Assembly: GCF_016865425.1 (NCBI RefSeq)
Contig: NZ_AP023355.1
Location: 928,198-992,197, forward strand
Reading direction: 5' to 3'
Origin: Actinocatenispora thailandica
GTDB lineage: Bacteria > Actinomycetota > Actinomycetes > Mycobacteriales > Micromonosporaceae
Length of the DNA stretch: 64,000 bases
The notes beneath the pieces were generated by a model, which was given only the letters and a program-made list of their open reading frames with translations, was not told where the DNA came from and did not search any database. The position numbers and the translations under genes were made by a program. Positions 10,138-52,534 of this stretch are shown one piece after another; positions within the stretch are counted from its first letter, which is position 1; each line of letters starts with the position of its first letter.

Positions 10138-10280
10138 CGCCGCCCCCGGGCACGGCACGGCAGGGTGCCCGACGGTCCGGCGACGGACCGGGCGGGTGAC
10201 GCGGCCCGCGGCTCCGGGGCGCGCTTCGGCGCTGCCGCGCGGAGTTGCGCGACGGGTCGCGAGCCGGCTCGGCTGGGCAT
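10131..10280 (-). other. Candidate intercistronic leader ORF bridging moxR and DUF58
   Basis: ATG 5 bases after the moxR stop, 49 codons (MPSRAGSRPV...), ending TGC TGA so that its stop lies 4-6 bases inside the DUF58 gene. Arg/Ala/Pro-rich and without recognisable domain. Possibly only a high-GC chance frame; listed because comparable ORFs fill other gaps in the window. Confidence 0.3.
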
Positions 10281-10285
10281 CGCGG

Positions 10286-13150: not shown

Positions 13151-13269
13151 GGCTGGTCCTCCCGTGCCGACCCGCCGGCGCGGGGCCACGCGCGCGCTCT
13201 CGCCGGCTCCGCCCTCTCCCCGGAAGCCGGGGCGGCGGCGCCCCCGGCACGCCTGGTTCGCTCGCTCAC
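13147..13269 (-). other. Candidate relay ORF (VSER...) coupled at both ends
   Basis: A 40-codon frame starting GTG AGC GAG CGA (VSERTRRAGG...). Its GTG overlaps the TGA of the membrane protein gene (13266) as GTGA and its own TGA overlaps the GTG of the DUF4129 gene as GTGA. Arg/Ala-rich, no domain. The exact overlap at both ends fits a translational bridge. Confidence 0.4.
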
Positions 13270-16229: not shown

Positions 16230-16333
16230 GACCGGTACTTTCGGGCGGATTCGACTGGCCGAACGGGTCGCGCCGGGCGCGTGGGGGCAACCGGGTTTTC
16301 CGTAGGTTGGCCGGCTGATGAAACGATAGGGCC

Positions 16334-16408
16334 ATGAGCGATACGCAACGAGGCGGAGCGCGGCGGTGGGACTTCGGTCGGTGCGCGACGCGGTCGGTGT
16401 CCGCGTGA
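16334..16408 (+). other. Candidate leader ORF overlapping the mtrA start
   Basis: ATG AGC GAT ACG... encodes a 24-residue Arg-rich peptide (MSDTQRGGARRW...) whose TGA overlaps the GTG at 16405 as GTGA. This overlap supports 16405 as the true mtrA start. Confidence 0.4.
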
Positions 16409-17094
16409 GGGCGCGAGTGCTCGTCGTCGACGACGACCCGGCGCTGGCCGAGATGCTCGGCATCGTGCTGCGCAGCGAGGGGTTCATGCCCTCGTTCGTG
16501 GCCGACGGTGAGCGGGCCCTGGCGGCGTTCCGGGAGACCAGGCCGGACATCGTGCTGCTCGACCTGATGCTGCCCGGGATGAGCGGGATCGACGTCTGTC
16601 GGGCGATTCGGGGCGAGTCCGGGGTGCCGATCGTGATGCTCACCGCCAAGAGCGACACCGTCGACGTGGTCCTCGGCCTGGAGTCCGGGGCCGACGACTA
16701 CGTGGTCAAGCCGTTCAAGCCCAAGGAACTGGTGGCCCGGATGCGGGCGCGGCTGCGGCGCGGCGAGGACACCGCGCCGGAGCTGCTCACCATCGGCCCG
16801 CCCGGCCGGCAGATCAGCATCGACGTGCCCGCCCACACCGCCACCCGCAACGGCGCCGAGGTCAAGCTGACCCCGCTGGAGTTCGACCTGCTCGTGGCGT
16901 TGGCACGCAAGCCGCGACAGGTGTTCACTCGTGAGGTGCTCCTGGAACAGGTCTGGGGCTACCGACACGCCGCGGACACCCGGCTGGTCAACGTGCACGT
17001 GCAGCGGTTACGGGCCAAGATCGAGCCCGACCCGGAACGTCCGGAGATCATCCTGACCGTCCGCGGTGTCGGCTACAAGGCAGGCACGGGGTAA
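16405..17094 (+). CDS. mtrA: Response regulator MtrA
   Basis: A 229-residue OmpR-type response regulator of the MtrAB system that controls cell-wall and division genes in actinobacteria. Receiver domain residues: acidic pair in LVVDDDP, phospho-acceptor Asp in LLDLMLPG (about residue 53), Lys in MLTAKSD. The winged helix at the C-terminus contains LTPLEFDLLVALARKPRQVFTR and RLVNVHVQRLRAKIE, nearly identical in pattern to mycobacterial MtrA. The GTG at 16405 gives VRARVLVVDDDP and overlaps the stop of a leader ORF; a GTG at 16366 is an alternative. Followed by two tiny coupled ORFs and mtrB. Confidence 0.95.
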   Translation: MRARVLVVDDDPALAEMLGIVLRSEGFMPSFVADGERALAAFRETRPDIVLLDLMLPGMSGIDVCRAIRGESGVPIVMLTAKSDTVDVVLGLESGADDYVVKPFKPKELVARMRARLRRGEDTAPELLTIGPPGRQISIDVPAHTATRNGAEVKLTPLEFDLLVALARKPRQVFTREVLLEQVWGYRHAADTRLVNVHVQRLRAKIEPDPERPEIILTVRGVGYKAGTG

Positions 17095-17097
17095 GGC

Positions 17098-17199
17098 ATG
17101 AGCGAGCGCCGCTCGGAGCGGAGCGGACGGCGGGCGTCGGCGAACGAGTCGCGGGCGCCGGTCGGCCGTCGCCCGGAGCACGGCGGAGCGCGGACATGA
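17098..17199 (+). other. Candidate relay ORF 1 between mtrA and mtrB (MSER...)
   Basis: ATG 3 bases after the mtrA stop; 33 residues, MSERRSERSG...GGART. Its TGA overlaps the ATG of the next tiny ORF (ACATGA at 17194-17199). Confidence 0.4.
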
Positions 17200-17279
17200 G
17201 CCGGCGCCGGCGGGCGGATCGTGCGCGCCGCCCGTTCGTCCCCCGGGGCCGCTCCGAGCGTGCCGGGGCGCGGACATGA
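17196..17279 (+). other. Candidate relay ORF 2 between mtrA and mtrB (MSRRRR...)
   Basis: 27 residues, MSRRRRADRARR...GART, ending with the same ACATGA as relay ORF 1; that ATG is the mtrB start. The two junctions share GCGCGGACATGAG, which looks like a tandem duplication of the mtrB start region. Confidence 0.4.
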
Positions 17280-19003
17280 GTCGACGCGACGCACTGGTGC
17301 GGCGGGCCCGGGAGACGCTGCACCGGGTGGCGCCGGGGCTGGGTCGACGCGCCCGCCGTGCGGTGTCCCCGTGGCGCCGCTCGCTGTCGCTGCGCGTCGT
17401 GTCGATCACGTTGCTGGTGTCGTCGCTGCTGGTGGCCGCGTTCGGGTACTTCGTGGCGAAGCAGATCACCGCCGGACTGGTGGTGGCCAAGCGGCAGGCC
17501 GCCGTGCGCCAGGTGTCCAGCGGCGCCACCACCGTGCAGCAGCAGCTGGCCGCGCTGTCCGGCGCGCAGGACCCGCAGCTTGGTGCGAGCGTCCGCGACG
17601 TGGTCGTGAACCTCTACAGCGTGCCCGCCCGCGCCGGTACCTACGAGGTCAAGCTGGTGCCCGACTCGCGCATCGACGTCGCACCGTACGGCGGGCCGGC
17701 GACCGACCAGACCAAGATCGAGGTGCCGGCCGCGCTGCGCGACACGGTCAGCCGCAAGGGTGCCCTGGCATACCAGTTCACCACCGCGGACCCGGACGGT
17801 CAGGGCCGGCGGCCCTACCTCGCCGTCGGCGAGCACGTCGACGTCGGCTGGGGCGTGTTCAACCTCTACTACCTGTTCCCGCTGGACGACGAGGTCGCCG
17901 CGGCCAACCTGGTGCGCAACACGACCATCATCGCCGGCCTGGCGCTGGTCCTGCTGCTCGCGCTGATGGCGGCGATCGTGGCCCGGATGGTGGTCACCCC
18001 GGTCCGGGTCGCGGCGCGCACCGCGCAGCGGCTGTCCGCCGGGCTGCTGCACGAACGGATGGAGGTGCGCGGCGAGGACGATCTCGCCCGGCTCGCCGCC
18101 TCGTTCAACCAGATGGCGAGCAACCTGCAGAACCAGATCGTCCGGCTGGAGGAGCTGTCCCGGCTGCAGCGCCGGTTCACCTCGGACGTCTCGCACGAGC
18201 TGCGCACGCCGCTGACGACGGTACGGATGGCCGCCGACATGCTCTACGCCGGTCGCGACGAGTTCCCGCCGGCCGCCGCCCGCAGCTCCGAACTGCTCGC
18301 CGACGAGCTGGACCGGTTCGAGGCGTTGCTGACCGACCTGCTGGAGATCAGCCGGTTCGACGCCGGGTTCGCGGTGCTCGACGCCGAGGCGGTCGACCTG
18401 GTACCGATCGTGCAGCGGGTCGCCGCCGGCTTCGGCGTGCTCGCCGAGCGGCTGCGCGCGCCGGTGCACCTGCACACCCCGGACGGGCCGGTGATCGCCG
18501 AGGTCGATCCGCGTCGGGTCGAGCGGGTGCTGCGCAACCTGATCGGGAACGCCATCGAACACGGTGAGCACCAGCCGGTCGAGGTCCACCTGGCGGCCGA
18601 CGAACGGACCGTGGCGATCGCGGTCCGCGATCGCGGCATCGGGCTGCGGCCGGGTGAGGAGAAGCTGGTGTTCAACCGGTTCTGGCGGGCCGACCCGTCC
18701 CGCGCCCGGCAGACCGGCGGCACCGGGCTGGGGCTGTCGATCAGCCTGGAGGATGCCCGGCTGCACGGCGGCTGGCTGGAGGCGTGGGGCGCGCCCGGGC
18801 AGGGCTCGCAGTTCCGGCTGACCGTGCCGGCCCGCGCCGGCGACCGCATCGTGTCGTCGCCGTTGCCGCTGGTGCCGCCGGACGCCGACGTGTCACCGGC
18901 GCCGCTGGCGCTGCCGGCCGGCCCGGCCGGCGGCAGCCTCGACGACGAACCGCAGCGGGAGCCGGACGTCGACCCGCTCTCGGCCGGGGTCGGCGATGAG
19001 TAG
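17276..19003 (+). CDS. mtrB: Sensor histidine kinase MtrB
   Basis: A 575-residue membrane kinase partner of MtrA. First helix at ~40-65 (LRVVSITLLVSSLLVAAFGYFVAKQI), extracytoplasmic sensor loop, second helix at ~215-240 (IIAGLALVLLLALMAAIVARMVV), HAMP, then the H-box SDVSHELRTPLTTVRM, N-box RNLIGNAIEHG, G1 VRDRGIGL, F-box FNRFWRADPSRARQ and G2 GGTGLGLSIS, all intact. A Pro/acidic C-terminal tail follows. The ATG is the overlap site of a preceding tiny ORF. The stop is overlapped 8 bases by lpqB, giving the classical mtrA-mtrB-lpqB operon. Confidence 0.95.
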   Translation: MSRRDALVRRARETLHRVAPGLGRRARRAVSPWRRSLSLRVVSITLLVSSLLVAAFGYFVAKQITAGLVVAKRQAAVRQVSSGATTVQQQLAALSGAQDPQLGASVRDVVVNLYSVPARAGTYEVKLVPDSRIDVAPYGGPATDQTKIEVPAALRDTVSRKGALAYQFTTADPDGQGRRPYLAVGEHVDVGWGVFNLYYLFPLDDEVAAANLVRNTTIIAGLALVLLLALMAAIVARMVVTPVRVAARTAQRLSAGLLHERMEVRGEDDLARLAASFNQMASNLQNQIVRLEELSRLQRRFTSDVSHELRTPLTTVRMAADMLYAGRDEFPPAAARSSELLADELDRFEALLTDLLEISRFDAGFAVLDAEAVDLVPIVQRVAAGFGVLAERLRAPVHLHTPDGPVIAEVDPRRVERVLRNLIGNAIEHGEHQPVEVHLAADERTVAIAVRDRGIGLRPGEEKLVFNRFWRADPSRARQTGGTGLGLSISLEDARLHGGWLEAWGAPGQGSQFRLTVPARAGDRIVSSPLPLVPPDADVSPAPLALPAGPAGGSLDDEPQREPDVDPLSAGVGDE

Positions 19004-34943: not shown

Positions 34944-35915
34944 ATGCGTCAGTCACTGGCCATCGAGGTCACCGACCTGGCCAAGTACTACGGACGGCAC
35001 CGGGCGGTGGCCGGGATCAGCTTCGACGTCGCCGACGGCGAGATCTTCGCGCTGCTGGGCCGCAACGGCGCCGGCAAGTCCACCACCATGAAGATGCTCA
35101 GCACGCTGATGCTGCCGAGTGGCGGCCGGGCCCGCGTCGCCGGCTACGACACGGTCCGGTCTCCGCGCGAGGTGCGGCACCGGATCGGGTTCGTGTTCCA
35201 GGAGAGCACCCTGGACCCCGCCCTGACCGTGCTGGAGAACCTACGCTTCCACGCCACCCTGTACGGCACGCCGCGGCGCCAGCTGGACGAACGCATCGAG
35301 TACGCGTTGATGCTGCTCGGGCTCGAACCACATGCCAAGGCGATCGTTGCGCGGCTGTCCGGCGGTCTCGCGCGGCGGCTGGAGATCGTGCGCGCGCTGC
35401 TGCACAAGCCCAAGATCCTCTTCCTGGACGAGCCGAGCCTCGGCCTCGACCCGCCCACCCGCACCCGGCTCTGGCAGGAGATCCGGCACCTGCGCGAACG
35501 CGACGGGCTGACGGTGCTGATGACCACGCACTACATGGACGAGGTGGAAAACGTCGACCGGCTCGCCATCGTCAACGCCGGCGAACTCGTCGCGATCGAC
35601 ACCCCGAGCCGGCTCAAGGCGGCCGTCGGACTGGACCGGATCCGGCTCAGTACCACCAACAACGCGCTGGCGCTGCACCAGCTGGTGGCCGCGGGCGTAC
35701 CGGCATGGGCGGAGGGCGAGGTCATCGTCTGCTGCGTGCCCGACGCGGAGCGCGGCATCGGCCGGCTGCTCGGCCATGTCGACGTGCCCGCCACCTCGGT
35801 CAGCGTCCAGCGGCCCAGCCTGGACGACGTGTTCGTGCACTTCACCGAGCAGGCGCTGGCGCGCGAGGCGGCCGAGCCGCCGTCCGGCACGCACCGTCGC
35901 CGGGTGCGGTCATGA
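34944..35915 (+). CDS. ABC transporter ATP-binding protein, DrrA-like
   Basis: A 323-residue ATPase of the drug/lipid/antibiotic exporter type. Walker A LLGRNGAGKST, Q-loop VFQESTLDPALTVLENL, signature LSGGLARRLEI, Walker B ILFLDEPSLGLDP and the H-loop MTTHYMDE are all intact; the C-terminal ~90 residues form the DrrA-type extension (RPSLDDVFVHFTEQAL). ATG 34944 has GGGAG 4 bases upstream; GTG 34929 is an alternative. Its stop overlaps the first of two tiny relay ORFs that lead to the permease gene. Confidence 0.88.
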   Translation: MRQSLAIEVTDLAKYYGRHRAVAGISFDVADGEIFALLGRNGAGKSTTMKMLSTLMLPSGGRARVAGYDTVRSPREVRHRIGFVFQESTLDPALTVLENLRFHATLYGTPRRQLDERIEYALMLLGLEPHAKAIVARLSGGLARRLEIVRALLHKPKILFLDEPSLGLDPPTRTRLWQEIRHLRERDGLTVLMTTHYMDEVENVDRLAIVNAGELVAIDTPSRLKAAVGLDRIRLSTTNNALALHQLVAAGVPAWAEGEVIVCCVPDAERGIGRLLGHVDVPATSVSVQRPSLDDVFVHFTEQALAREAAEPPSGTHRRRVRS

Positions 35916-35965
35916 GCGATCGTCGGCGAGCGAGCCGCGGGTGTCGCGCGCTGCGTGCCTCATGA
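35912..35965 (+). other. Candidate relay ORF 1 between ABC ATPase and permease (MSDRRR...)
   Basis: 17 residues (MSDRRRASRGCRALRAS). Its ATG overlaps the ATPase stop (ATGA) and its TGA overlaps the ATG of the next tiny ORF (ATGA). Confidence 0.4.
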
Positions 35966-35991
35966 GCGTCCCGAGGGAGGGGCGTTCGTGA
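35962..35991 (+). other. Candidate relay ORF 2 (MSVPREGRS)
   Basis: Nine residues; contains the GAGGGAGGGG Shine-Dalgarno for the next gene and ends in GTGA, overlapping the permease GTG at 35988. Confidence 0.4.
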
Positions 35992-52162: not shown

Positions 52163-52534
52163 GGGGGTGACTGGTTTCGACTTCGTACGTCGAGCCAGGG
52201 GAAGCGGGCTGAGGAAGCCGACGTCGTCTCATTAATCGGTCGTCGGAAACCAAAAAGCGCCAACTCTAAGCGCGCTGACTTCGCTCTCGCCGCCTGAGGC
52301 GAGTAGCAAGTCTGTCGGTCCGGAAGTGCCTTCGGTCCGGTAGCCGGCATCAGCTAGAGGGCTTGCTGTTCGAGTTCGGCCGCGGAACTCGGACGGGACT
52401 TTCACAGCGGCTGGGCCTGTCACATCGTCTCGCTCGCGTGATCGATGGGGCCAAGTAGAGGCATAGCGAGCTGCGCCCGGAGAAGCCCTGGCAACACAGC
52501 GAAGGACCCGGGTTCAATTCCCGGCACCTCCACC
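52163..52534 (+). ncRNA. ssrA: tmRNA (SsrA)
   Basis: Begins GGGGGTGACTGGTTTCGAC and ends GGTTCAATTCCCGGCACC TCC; the first seven bases GGGGGTG pair with CACCTCC (52525-52531) to form the alanyl acceptor stem. The tag frame GCC AAC TCT AAG ... encodes ANSKRADFALAA followed by TGA at about 52297-52299, a typical actinobacterial tag ending ALAA. The discriminator A is followed by CCG, so the full CCA end is not encoded in the genome. It works with the neighbouring smpB product in trans-translation. Confidence 0.95.

Follow-up and report, generated by a model that had tools for sequence, protein, structure and literature searches.

Decayed copies of a dispersed ~80-nt repeat with a stop-start chained reading frame probably lie between mtrA and mtrB of Actinocatenispora thailandica

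The mtrA-mtrB junction

The two-component genes mtrA and mtrB follow each other on the forward strand of the window, the whole stretch of 64,000 nucleotides analysed here from the genome of Actinocatenispora thailandica (G000). The mtrA gene extends from 16405 to 17094, with a GTGAGG start at 16405 (VRARVLVVDDD) and a TAA stop at 17092-17094, and mtrB from 17276 to 19003, with an ATG start at 17276. Both gene names, proposed in a first-pass annotation, were confirmed by the NCBIfam equivalog models MtrAB_MtrA (scored on the longer frame 16366-17091) and MtrAB_MtrB, each above its cut-off. We chose the mtrA start at 16405 on the ground that mtrA begins with RTGA in all 106 loci of the taxonomic family in which the start region could be located. 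Many Actinoplanes-type loci also show a short VQYWTA/VQYWIA frame before mtrA, which may really be the -10 box of a leaderless transcript.

The insert-bearing gap between the two genes (17095-17275, forward strand) measures 181 nt and is spanned by two tiny ORFs on the same strand, ORF1 (17098-17199, 33 codons) and ORF2 (17196-17279, 27 codons), in agreement with the lengths and coordinates first reported. According to the first-pass annotation, each stop of this chain overlaps the next start. This holds for two of the three junctions, ORF1/ORF2 and ORF2/mtrB, both of which are ATGA overlaps, and fails for mtrA/ORF1, where TAA GGC ATG leaves a 3-nt spacer without overlap. With its TGA stop inside the RTG start of mtrB, the frame at 17196-17279 is an RTGA-coupled small ORF in the sense of Shell et al. 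(2015, PMC4633059), and the mtrA-to-ORF1 junction is not of this kind. A sequence common to both overlaps had also been proposed, and the 13-mer GCGCGGACATGAG is indeed exact at both ATGA junctions, with no other exact occurrence in the window in a search that allowed up to two mismatches; it is part of a 38-nt direct repeat of 79% identity whose copies lie 80 nt apart. A start of mtrB further upstream was rejected for G000, since there is no in-frame RTG or TTG codon between the mtrA stop and 17276. In another Actinocatenispora genome, G003, an in-frame ATG at +45 is a possible start of mtrB.

Chained reading frames in codirectional gaps

Genes were called with our own gene finder in the window and in 60 stretches of 20 kb from G000 (1.264 Mb, 1055 genes in total); the gene starts used below are those of this program, which misplaced at least one start in Actinocatenispora rupis (at the 35912 junction, see below) and one in Actinocatenispora comari. 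The enrichment of overlapping tiny ORFs over shuffled sequence, by which the first-pass annotation expected its proposal to stand or fall, turned out to be only marginal. Full chains span 38 of the 338 codirectional gaps of 20-400 nt versus 30.0 in shuffles (sd 3.7; maximum over 60 shuffles 39), and chains of at least two links span 8 of them versus 3.5 (sd 1.7, largest 8). When the mtr gap itself was shuffled with its dinucleotides preserved, a full chain arose in 325 of 5000 shuffles, with two or more links in 53 of the 5000. Such chains are expected by chance in DNA of 73% G+C because stops are rare and because a start codon followed by A carries a TGA in the overlapping frame. A model match of at least 25 bits, for the repeat described below, was present in the gaps of only eight of the 38 full chains (five of the eight multi-link chains). 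In G006, another member of the taxonomic family, the 14 full chains counted do not rise above the level of shuffling (11.8, sd 2.3), and there are 4 multi-link chains versus 1.1. The ORF chain by itself can therefore not carry the claim, given that full chains are barely above shuffles and that the shuffled mtr gap closes as often as it does, and the comparison of bridging-ORF counts with shuffles was set aside as the main proof.

Two gaps of G006 contain units repeated in tandem, with lengths of 59 and about 63 nt, which follow the same stop-start logic. At L187 and L192 of this genome, four units of VSVRSEPGLRAPQSRTEGDR or a near variant recur with a 59-nt spacing, and an in-frame set of VSARSAAQRSPAVRERTDRP is present.

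A repeat family of about 80 nt

Several of the chained gaps share one unit of ~80 nt, which is present in some of them as tandem copies. A first profile, made from 10 seed units taken from gaps, found 16 to 18 places in the 1.264-Mb sample of G000, including a clear copy at 35912-35991 on the forward strand (46.5 bits). This copy is a 76-nt unit whose frame is divided by an internal ATGA (35962), which gives two tiny ORFs with steps of 50 and 26 nt. Two other models, neither of which contains a sequence from the mtr gap, were then used: a sequence-only model made from 13 copies (R1) and a covariance model made from 14 other copies (R2), the latter giving the copy at 35912 a score of 47.7 bits (E 1.3e-9). 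At E ≤ 0.01, R1 has at least 81 matches in G000, at least 83 in A. comari, at least 68 in G003 and at least 26 in A. rupis, with no more than 150 candidates scored in each genome. The unit measures 77 or 80 nt in 59 of the 66 scored units, and 18 of the 52 arrays consist of two or more copies in tandem.

Beyond this genus, searches were run at the level of the family, the order and the class, under strict filters and with few candidates scored per genome. In the family, R1 detected the element in at least 52 of 121 genomes (at least 22 of 44 genera; E ≤ 1e-3; the four Actinocatenispora included), and in the order in at least 49 of 298 genomes (at least 7 of 77 genera; E ≤ 1e-4); in the class, R2 detected it in at least 27 of 394 genomes (at least 10 of 138 genera; E ≤ 1e-5). 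Judged by these matches, the elements occur well outside Actinocatenispora. The motif TGAGCGAGCGNAGCG, present in 11 of 21 genomes and with a single match in G000, proved too strict to mark the family. No Rfam model matched the element in 8 loci (27,102 bases). The Y1 transposase model PF01797 had no match in G000 and A. rupis and one match each in A. comari and G003, and the idea that the mtr gap is a transposase-linked palindrome was rejected, G000 having no Y1 transposase.

Position and orientation of the copies

Placement was analysed in the G000 sample, to which 20 further places of G000 and 20 places of G003, picked by R1 matches, were added. As the copies are related to one another, the counts given here and below are not independent. 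Among the 84 profile matches, 81 reach at least 25 bits and form 52 arrays, 43 of which are flanked on both sides by genes that read in the direction of the element, and one of which is at an edge; the upstream gene is opposite in six arrays and the downstream gene in two. The start codon of a codirectional downstream gene is the exact end point of 47 out of 49 arrays, and where the upstream gene is codirectional, 21 of 46 begin 4 nt inside its stop; both features are combined in 19 of 43. The same arrangement was found in other genera of the family, in which 11 of 11 copies inspected end on a coding-like ORF and seven of them overlap a coding-like stop at their beginning, at -4. Outside the family, seven loci that represent the best-scoring matches rather than a random draw have 77- or 80-nt units (7/7), a long downstream ORF (7/7) and a -4 overlap with a coding-like upstream stop (6/7).

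A precise pair of occupied and empty sites is provided by the junction before nuoJ, a gene assigned by PF00499 (the upstream nuoI by its position). One 80-nt copy stands there between two ATGA overlaps in G000, and the junction is an uninterrupted -4 ATGA overlap in all five relatives compared (G003, A. comari, A. rupis, G006 and G106). For the other loci, apart from mtrA-mtrB, insertion rather than loss would likewise be the direction of change. Another copy, L140:4751-4834 (76-nt gap, -4/-4), is located directly before the gene of an acetolactate synthase small subunit (PF10369).

The frame is kept and the end of the unit folds

Of the 66 scored units, 62 have a length of 2 mod 3, as needed to keep the chain, and an exact RTG...TGA frame ending at the terminal TGA is likewise present in 62 of them. 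This count left out 15 of the 81 copies, 12 of which have both ends placed; as only five of these twelve are 80 nt long (five others have 78 nt, one 73 and one 70), 67 of the 78 placed units conform to 2 mod 3. The 78-nt units belong to a tandem array of G003 that forms one frame of 156 codons, and the last unit of this array, with 77 nt, restores the RTGA overlap. No premature stop is found in the 26 dereplicated 80-nt units versus 4.9 in column shuffles, none of 2000 being as low; the 16 units of 77 nt are also free of stops versus 0.9 expected, a deficit equalled by 19% of the shuffles and not significant. Constraint on codon positions was detected neither in the 80-nt units (differences of 0.322/0.289/0.310, p 0.46) nor in the 77-nt units (0.240/0.255/0.276, p 0.29). 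Since the units keep to 2 mod 3, have few stops and differ equally at the three codon positions, the frame is kept and the peptide is not visibly selected. A recurring intercistronic class with a tiny RTGA-chained frame that begins RTGAGCGA, as surmised in the first-pass annotation, thus exists in this genome.

Over its last ~35 nt the unit folds into a hairpin, the terminal CATGA pairing with an internal TCATG, and the stem is altered on both sides in many copies. Compensatory cells number 27 versus 7.3 in shuffles for the 80-nt units (largest of 500 shuffles 17) and 12 versus 3.8 for the 77-nt units (largest 9), counts that are not independent and are inflated by the relatedness of the copies. 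In a set spanning several genera, seven pairs are changed on both sides. In one type of unit that bears AAGGAGG, this motif is also inside the hairpin.

The mtr gap as a member of the family

R2 matches the same mtr gap in three species over model positions 1-84, with 57.8 bits in G003, 41.3 bits in A. comari and 26.0 bits in the window at 17196-17279. The match in the window corresponds to ORF2, which is recovered weakly but as a whole unit from RTGA to RTGA (E 0.0002 in 83 kb, 0.0178 genome-wide), ranks 63rd among the 65 R2 matches listed genome-wide and shares 58 of 84 letters with copy L131 in an ungapped alignment. The copy in the mtr gap of G003 reaches a genome-wide E of 4.1e-12 with R1. 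The first profile gave the gap of the window only 4.7 and 1.9 bits, which is not significant; ORF2 was recovered by a second profile and by the covariance model, both made from copies of a closer type that include no mtr sequence. In none of 2000 shuffles of the mtr gap was the real score reached with the second profile, compared with 5 of 2000 with the first, less suited one. ORF2 is thus a decayed copy of the ~80-nt element. In ORF1, R2 sees only a 33-position stretch (17106-17137; 11.2 bits, E 0.69), which is not significant. ORF1 is probably also a copy, further decayed and carrying extra sequence, an assignment that rests on the sister species, in which recognisable units are present in the corresponding region, because its own match is short and non-significant.

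The distance from mtrA to mtrB is 181 nt in G000, 102 nt in G003, 104 nt in A. comari and 5 nt in A. rupis, whose junction is without insert. In the three species with an insert the chain is closed, although lengths and sequences differ; in A. comari, a single frame made of two fused units, as in the tandem array of G003, terminates in the mtrB GTGA. Across the taxonomic family, the first in-frame start lies no more than 30 nt from the end of mtrA in 97 of 110 mtrAB loci (some species being counted twice). The 5 nt of A. rupis and the short distance in these 97 loci indicate that the insert is a gain in the three-species branch of Actinocatenispora. A hairpin at the start of mtrB itself is evident in G003 and not in G000 or A. 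comari, the fold z-scores, obtained with single-base shuffles, being -3.99, +0.76 and -0.07, respectively.

A proposed mechanism and its alternatives

Our main reading, to which we assign a probability of about 0.8, is that decayed copies of an insertion element resembling MIRUs occupy the mtr gap, and that this element exploits and preserves translational coupling. The unit, of about 80 nt (mostly 77 or 80), has the layout RTGAGCGAGCG...[hairpin]...RTGA and is located at the stop/start junctions of operons, above all at 4-nt RTGA overlaps, RTGA standing at both ends of the insert. It supplies its own start, a stop-free frame and a terminal TGA overlapping the downstream start, so that one overlap is turned into overlap, tiny ORF and overlap. 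Translation of these frames, re-initiation and gating by the hairpin, all of which we infer from sequence, could then proceed as follows. A ribosome leaving the upstream gene would re-initiate on the tiny ORF and open the hairpin at its end, in which the next start codon is enclosed (together with AAGGAGG in some copies), before re-initiating on the downstream gene; the peptide would be a by-product. The unfolding of structure at the downstream start is one of two models of coupling given in the available passages of a 2025 review (PMC12548453). In the ancestor of the three species, such a sequence would have been gained between mtrA and mtrB and would later have diverged in length and sequence, the chain staying closed.

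If the tiny chained ORFs had arisen by themselves in a spacer of 73-81% G+C, one would expect numbers close to those obtained above, 38 full chains versus 30.0 (sd 3.7) in 338 gaps, and for the mtr gap a full chain in 325 and a multi-link chain in 53 of 5000 shuffles. Such an origin does not account for an end-to-end match to the family from ATGA to ATGA that none of 2000 shuffles equals with the second profile, for clear family members in the same gap of the sister species, for a chain that is closed in three species despite unlike lengths, or for the strand of the matches, since 11 of 275 gaps score at least 8 bits on the coding strand and none on the reverse strand. The sequence family behind the chain is beyond chance, chance is already unlikely for ORF2, and overall we regard it as improbable. 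The main role of the insert might instead be to provide mtrB with its own promoter or with a processing site. There is a precedent in the MIRU-bearing senX3-regX3 gap of M. tuberculosis, which drives senX3-independent expression of regX3, as stated in the accessible part of PMC4213456. However, a simple scan for sigma-70-type promoters and for terminators gave no such pattern in 16230-17300, and a promoter does not predict that the family keeps its frame, which makes this reading very improbable.

The first-pass annotation saw in the tiny ORFs a relay by which ribosomes keep the MtrA/MtrB pair stoichiometric. A relay selected for this purpose, as an adaptive device of the operon, would explain why the chain is closed in three species over 181, 102 and 104 nt of unlike sequence. 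A closed chain would, however, also result from avoidance of damage to the expression of mtrB, and A. rupis manages with 5 nt. Because mtrB starts 5 nt after mtrA there, the insert maintains, at most, a coupling that predates it, and the stoichiometry claim is not supported. The same elements, moreover, stand at many unrelated junctions, so that what had looked like a device of mtrA and mtrB is instead a dispersed, inserting repeat family, and selection for stoichiometry appears to us hardly likely. That the ORFs encode functional small proteins could be argued from open frames with starts and from the avoidance of stops in the family. Against this, the copies give no codon-position signal, the peptide of the mtr gap differs between species, and the five peptides scanned had no Pfam match and in NCBIfam a single sub-threshold match to one of them (13.3 bits, cut-off 40); we consider functional small proteins extremely improbable.

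Relation to known elements

The first-pass annotation was not aware of a description of such elements. The logic of stop-start insertion is in fact already known, since the principle has been reported for MIRUs (PMC12548453) and for RTGA-coupled small ORFs (PMC4633059), as far as the accessible parts of these sources go. According to passages of the 2025 review, MIRUs insert at start codons and their internal ORF is coupled to the gene with a -4 spacing (PMC12548453); the element is cited to Supply et al. (1997). They are described as 40-100-bp units at 41 places (PMC2734929), with units of 77 and 53 bp between senX3 and regX3 (PMC4213456). In the excerpts of these three papers, MIRUs thus resemble the present elements as short intercistronic repeats, scattered and in tandem, which also occur between two-component genes. 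Size (77 or 80 nt in 59/66 units), number (at least 81 matches in G000) and tandem arrangement (18/52 arrays) are similar, and so is insertion at start codons, documented here by 47 of 49 arrays and by the exact occupied and empty sites before nuoJ; the -4 coupling would be a further likeness. In the rnc-fpg1 gap, which has 279-358 bp in the M. tuberculosis complex, most other species listed in the part of PMC2734929 seen have only a few bp, as does A. rupis at the mtr junction. The two groups of elements differ in their taxa; R2 has one match in 118 genomes of the genus of G127, and the likeness is to descriptions of MIRUs, not to MIRU sequences. A covarying hairpin at the next start codon and a spread over several bacterial families are features of the present elements that are absent from the MIRU accounts, as far as these were accessible.

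In the portion of their report available, the small ORFs of Shell et al. (2015, PMC4633059) are likewise tied to the next gene by an RTGA tetramer, are enriched in mycobacteria and can be conserved in placement and coupling without conservation of the peptide. Unlike the present elements, they were defined on leaderless transcripts and, in that portion, in which the term MIRU has no occurrence, are not assigned to a repeat family.

REP/RAYT or IS200/IS605-type palindromic elements are also short, dispersed and provided with a hairpin end. They differ in their Y1 transposase, for which PF01797 has no match in G000 and A. rupis, and we know of no tie of these elements to start codons or to a reading frame.

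The family also suggests that use of the MIRU principle extends from mycobacteria, for which it was described, to several other actinobacterial families. In the open literature searched, no description of a comparable family outside mycobacteria was found; within this incomplete coverage, the breadth of the family and its hairpin are the parts that appear to be undescribed. A broader hypothesis, which we hold to be about evenly balanced, is that one self-spreading family of 'coupled cistrons' extends across many families of Actinomycetes. It would target RTGA overlaps, duplicate the tetramer and bring a hairpin-gated tiny cistron, so that an insertion in the middle of an operon would cost the host little; it would evolve as a frame, without being selected as a protein, and MIRUs would either be the branch of this family found in mycobacteria or exemplify a general strategy in parallel. 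A curiosity in a single gap thereby becomes a testable family, and the occupied junctions, together with their insert-free relatives, constitute a natural experiment on whether stop-start overlaps keep neighbouring genes in step. For annotators, there is reason not to name such frames as genes and not to extend downstream genes into them.

Other intercistronic cases in the window

The first-pass annotation had grouped the mtr gap with four other places of the window as one class, a grouping that dissolves into one clear member (35912), one decayed member (the mtr gap), two unrecognised inserts and one conserved leader ORF. At the 35912 junction, A. rupis is closed at -4 when the start is read manually, the gene finder having called a later one.

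The first of the two inserts, named after 13147, measures 115 nt (13151-13265, reverse strand) and contains one tiny ORF with -4/-4 overlaps; with an R2 score of 7.5 bits (E 5.4) it is not recognised as a copy by the family models. The other, named after 10131, measures 148 nt (10138-10285, reverse strand), contains one bridging ORF and is not recognised as a copy either. The corresponding junctions of A. rupis are closed, at -4 for 13147 and at -1 for 10131. At the 13147 junction, three species carry three unlike inserts (119, 68 and 59 nt), each with one -4/-4 ORF, and the insert of A. comari resembles a duplication of the end of the upstream gene. The growth of a junction therefore need not always stem from the ~80-nt family.

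The leader ORF at 16334-16408 (forward strand; MSDTQR...) overlaps the start of mtrA by RTGA. It is conserved in all four Actinocatenispora, with 24 codons in three of them and 36 in A. rupis, the overlap being kept. It may be an old insert at the start of mtrA, although the models do not recognise it as a copy, and it fits the RTGA-coupled small ORFs, as far as the accessible part of the report of Shell et al. (2015, PMC4633059) describes them, better than the mtrA-mtrB gap does. Elsewhere in the window, a tmRNA gene with the tag ANSKRADFALAA is located at 52163-52534.
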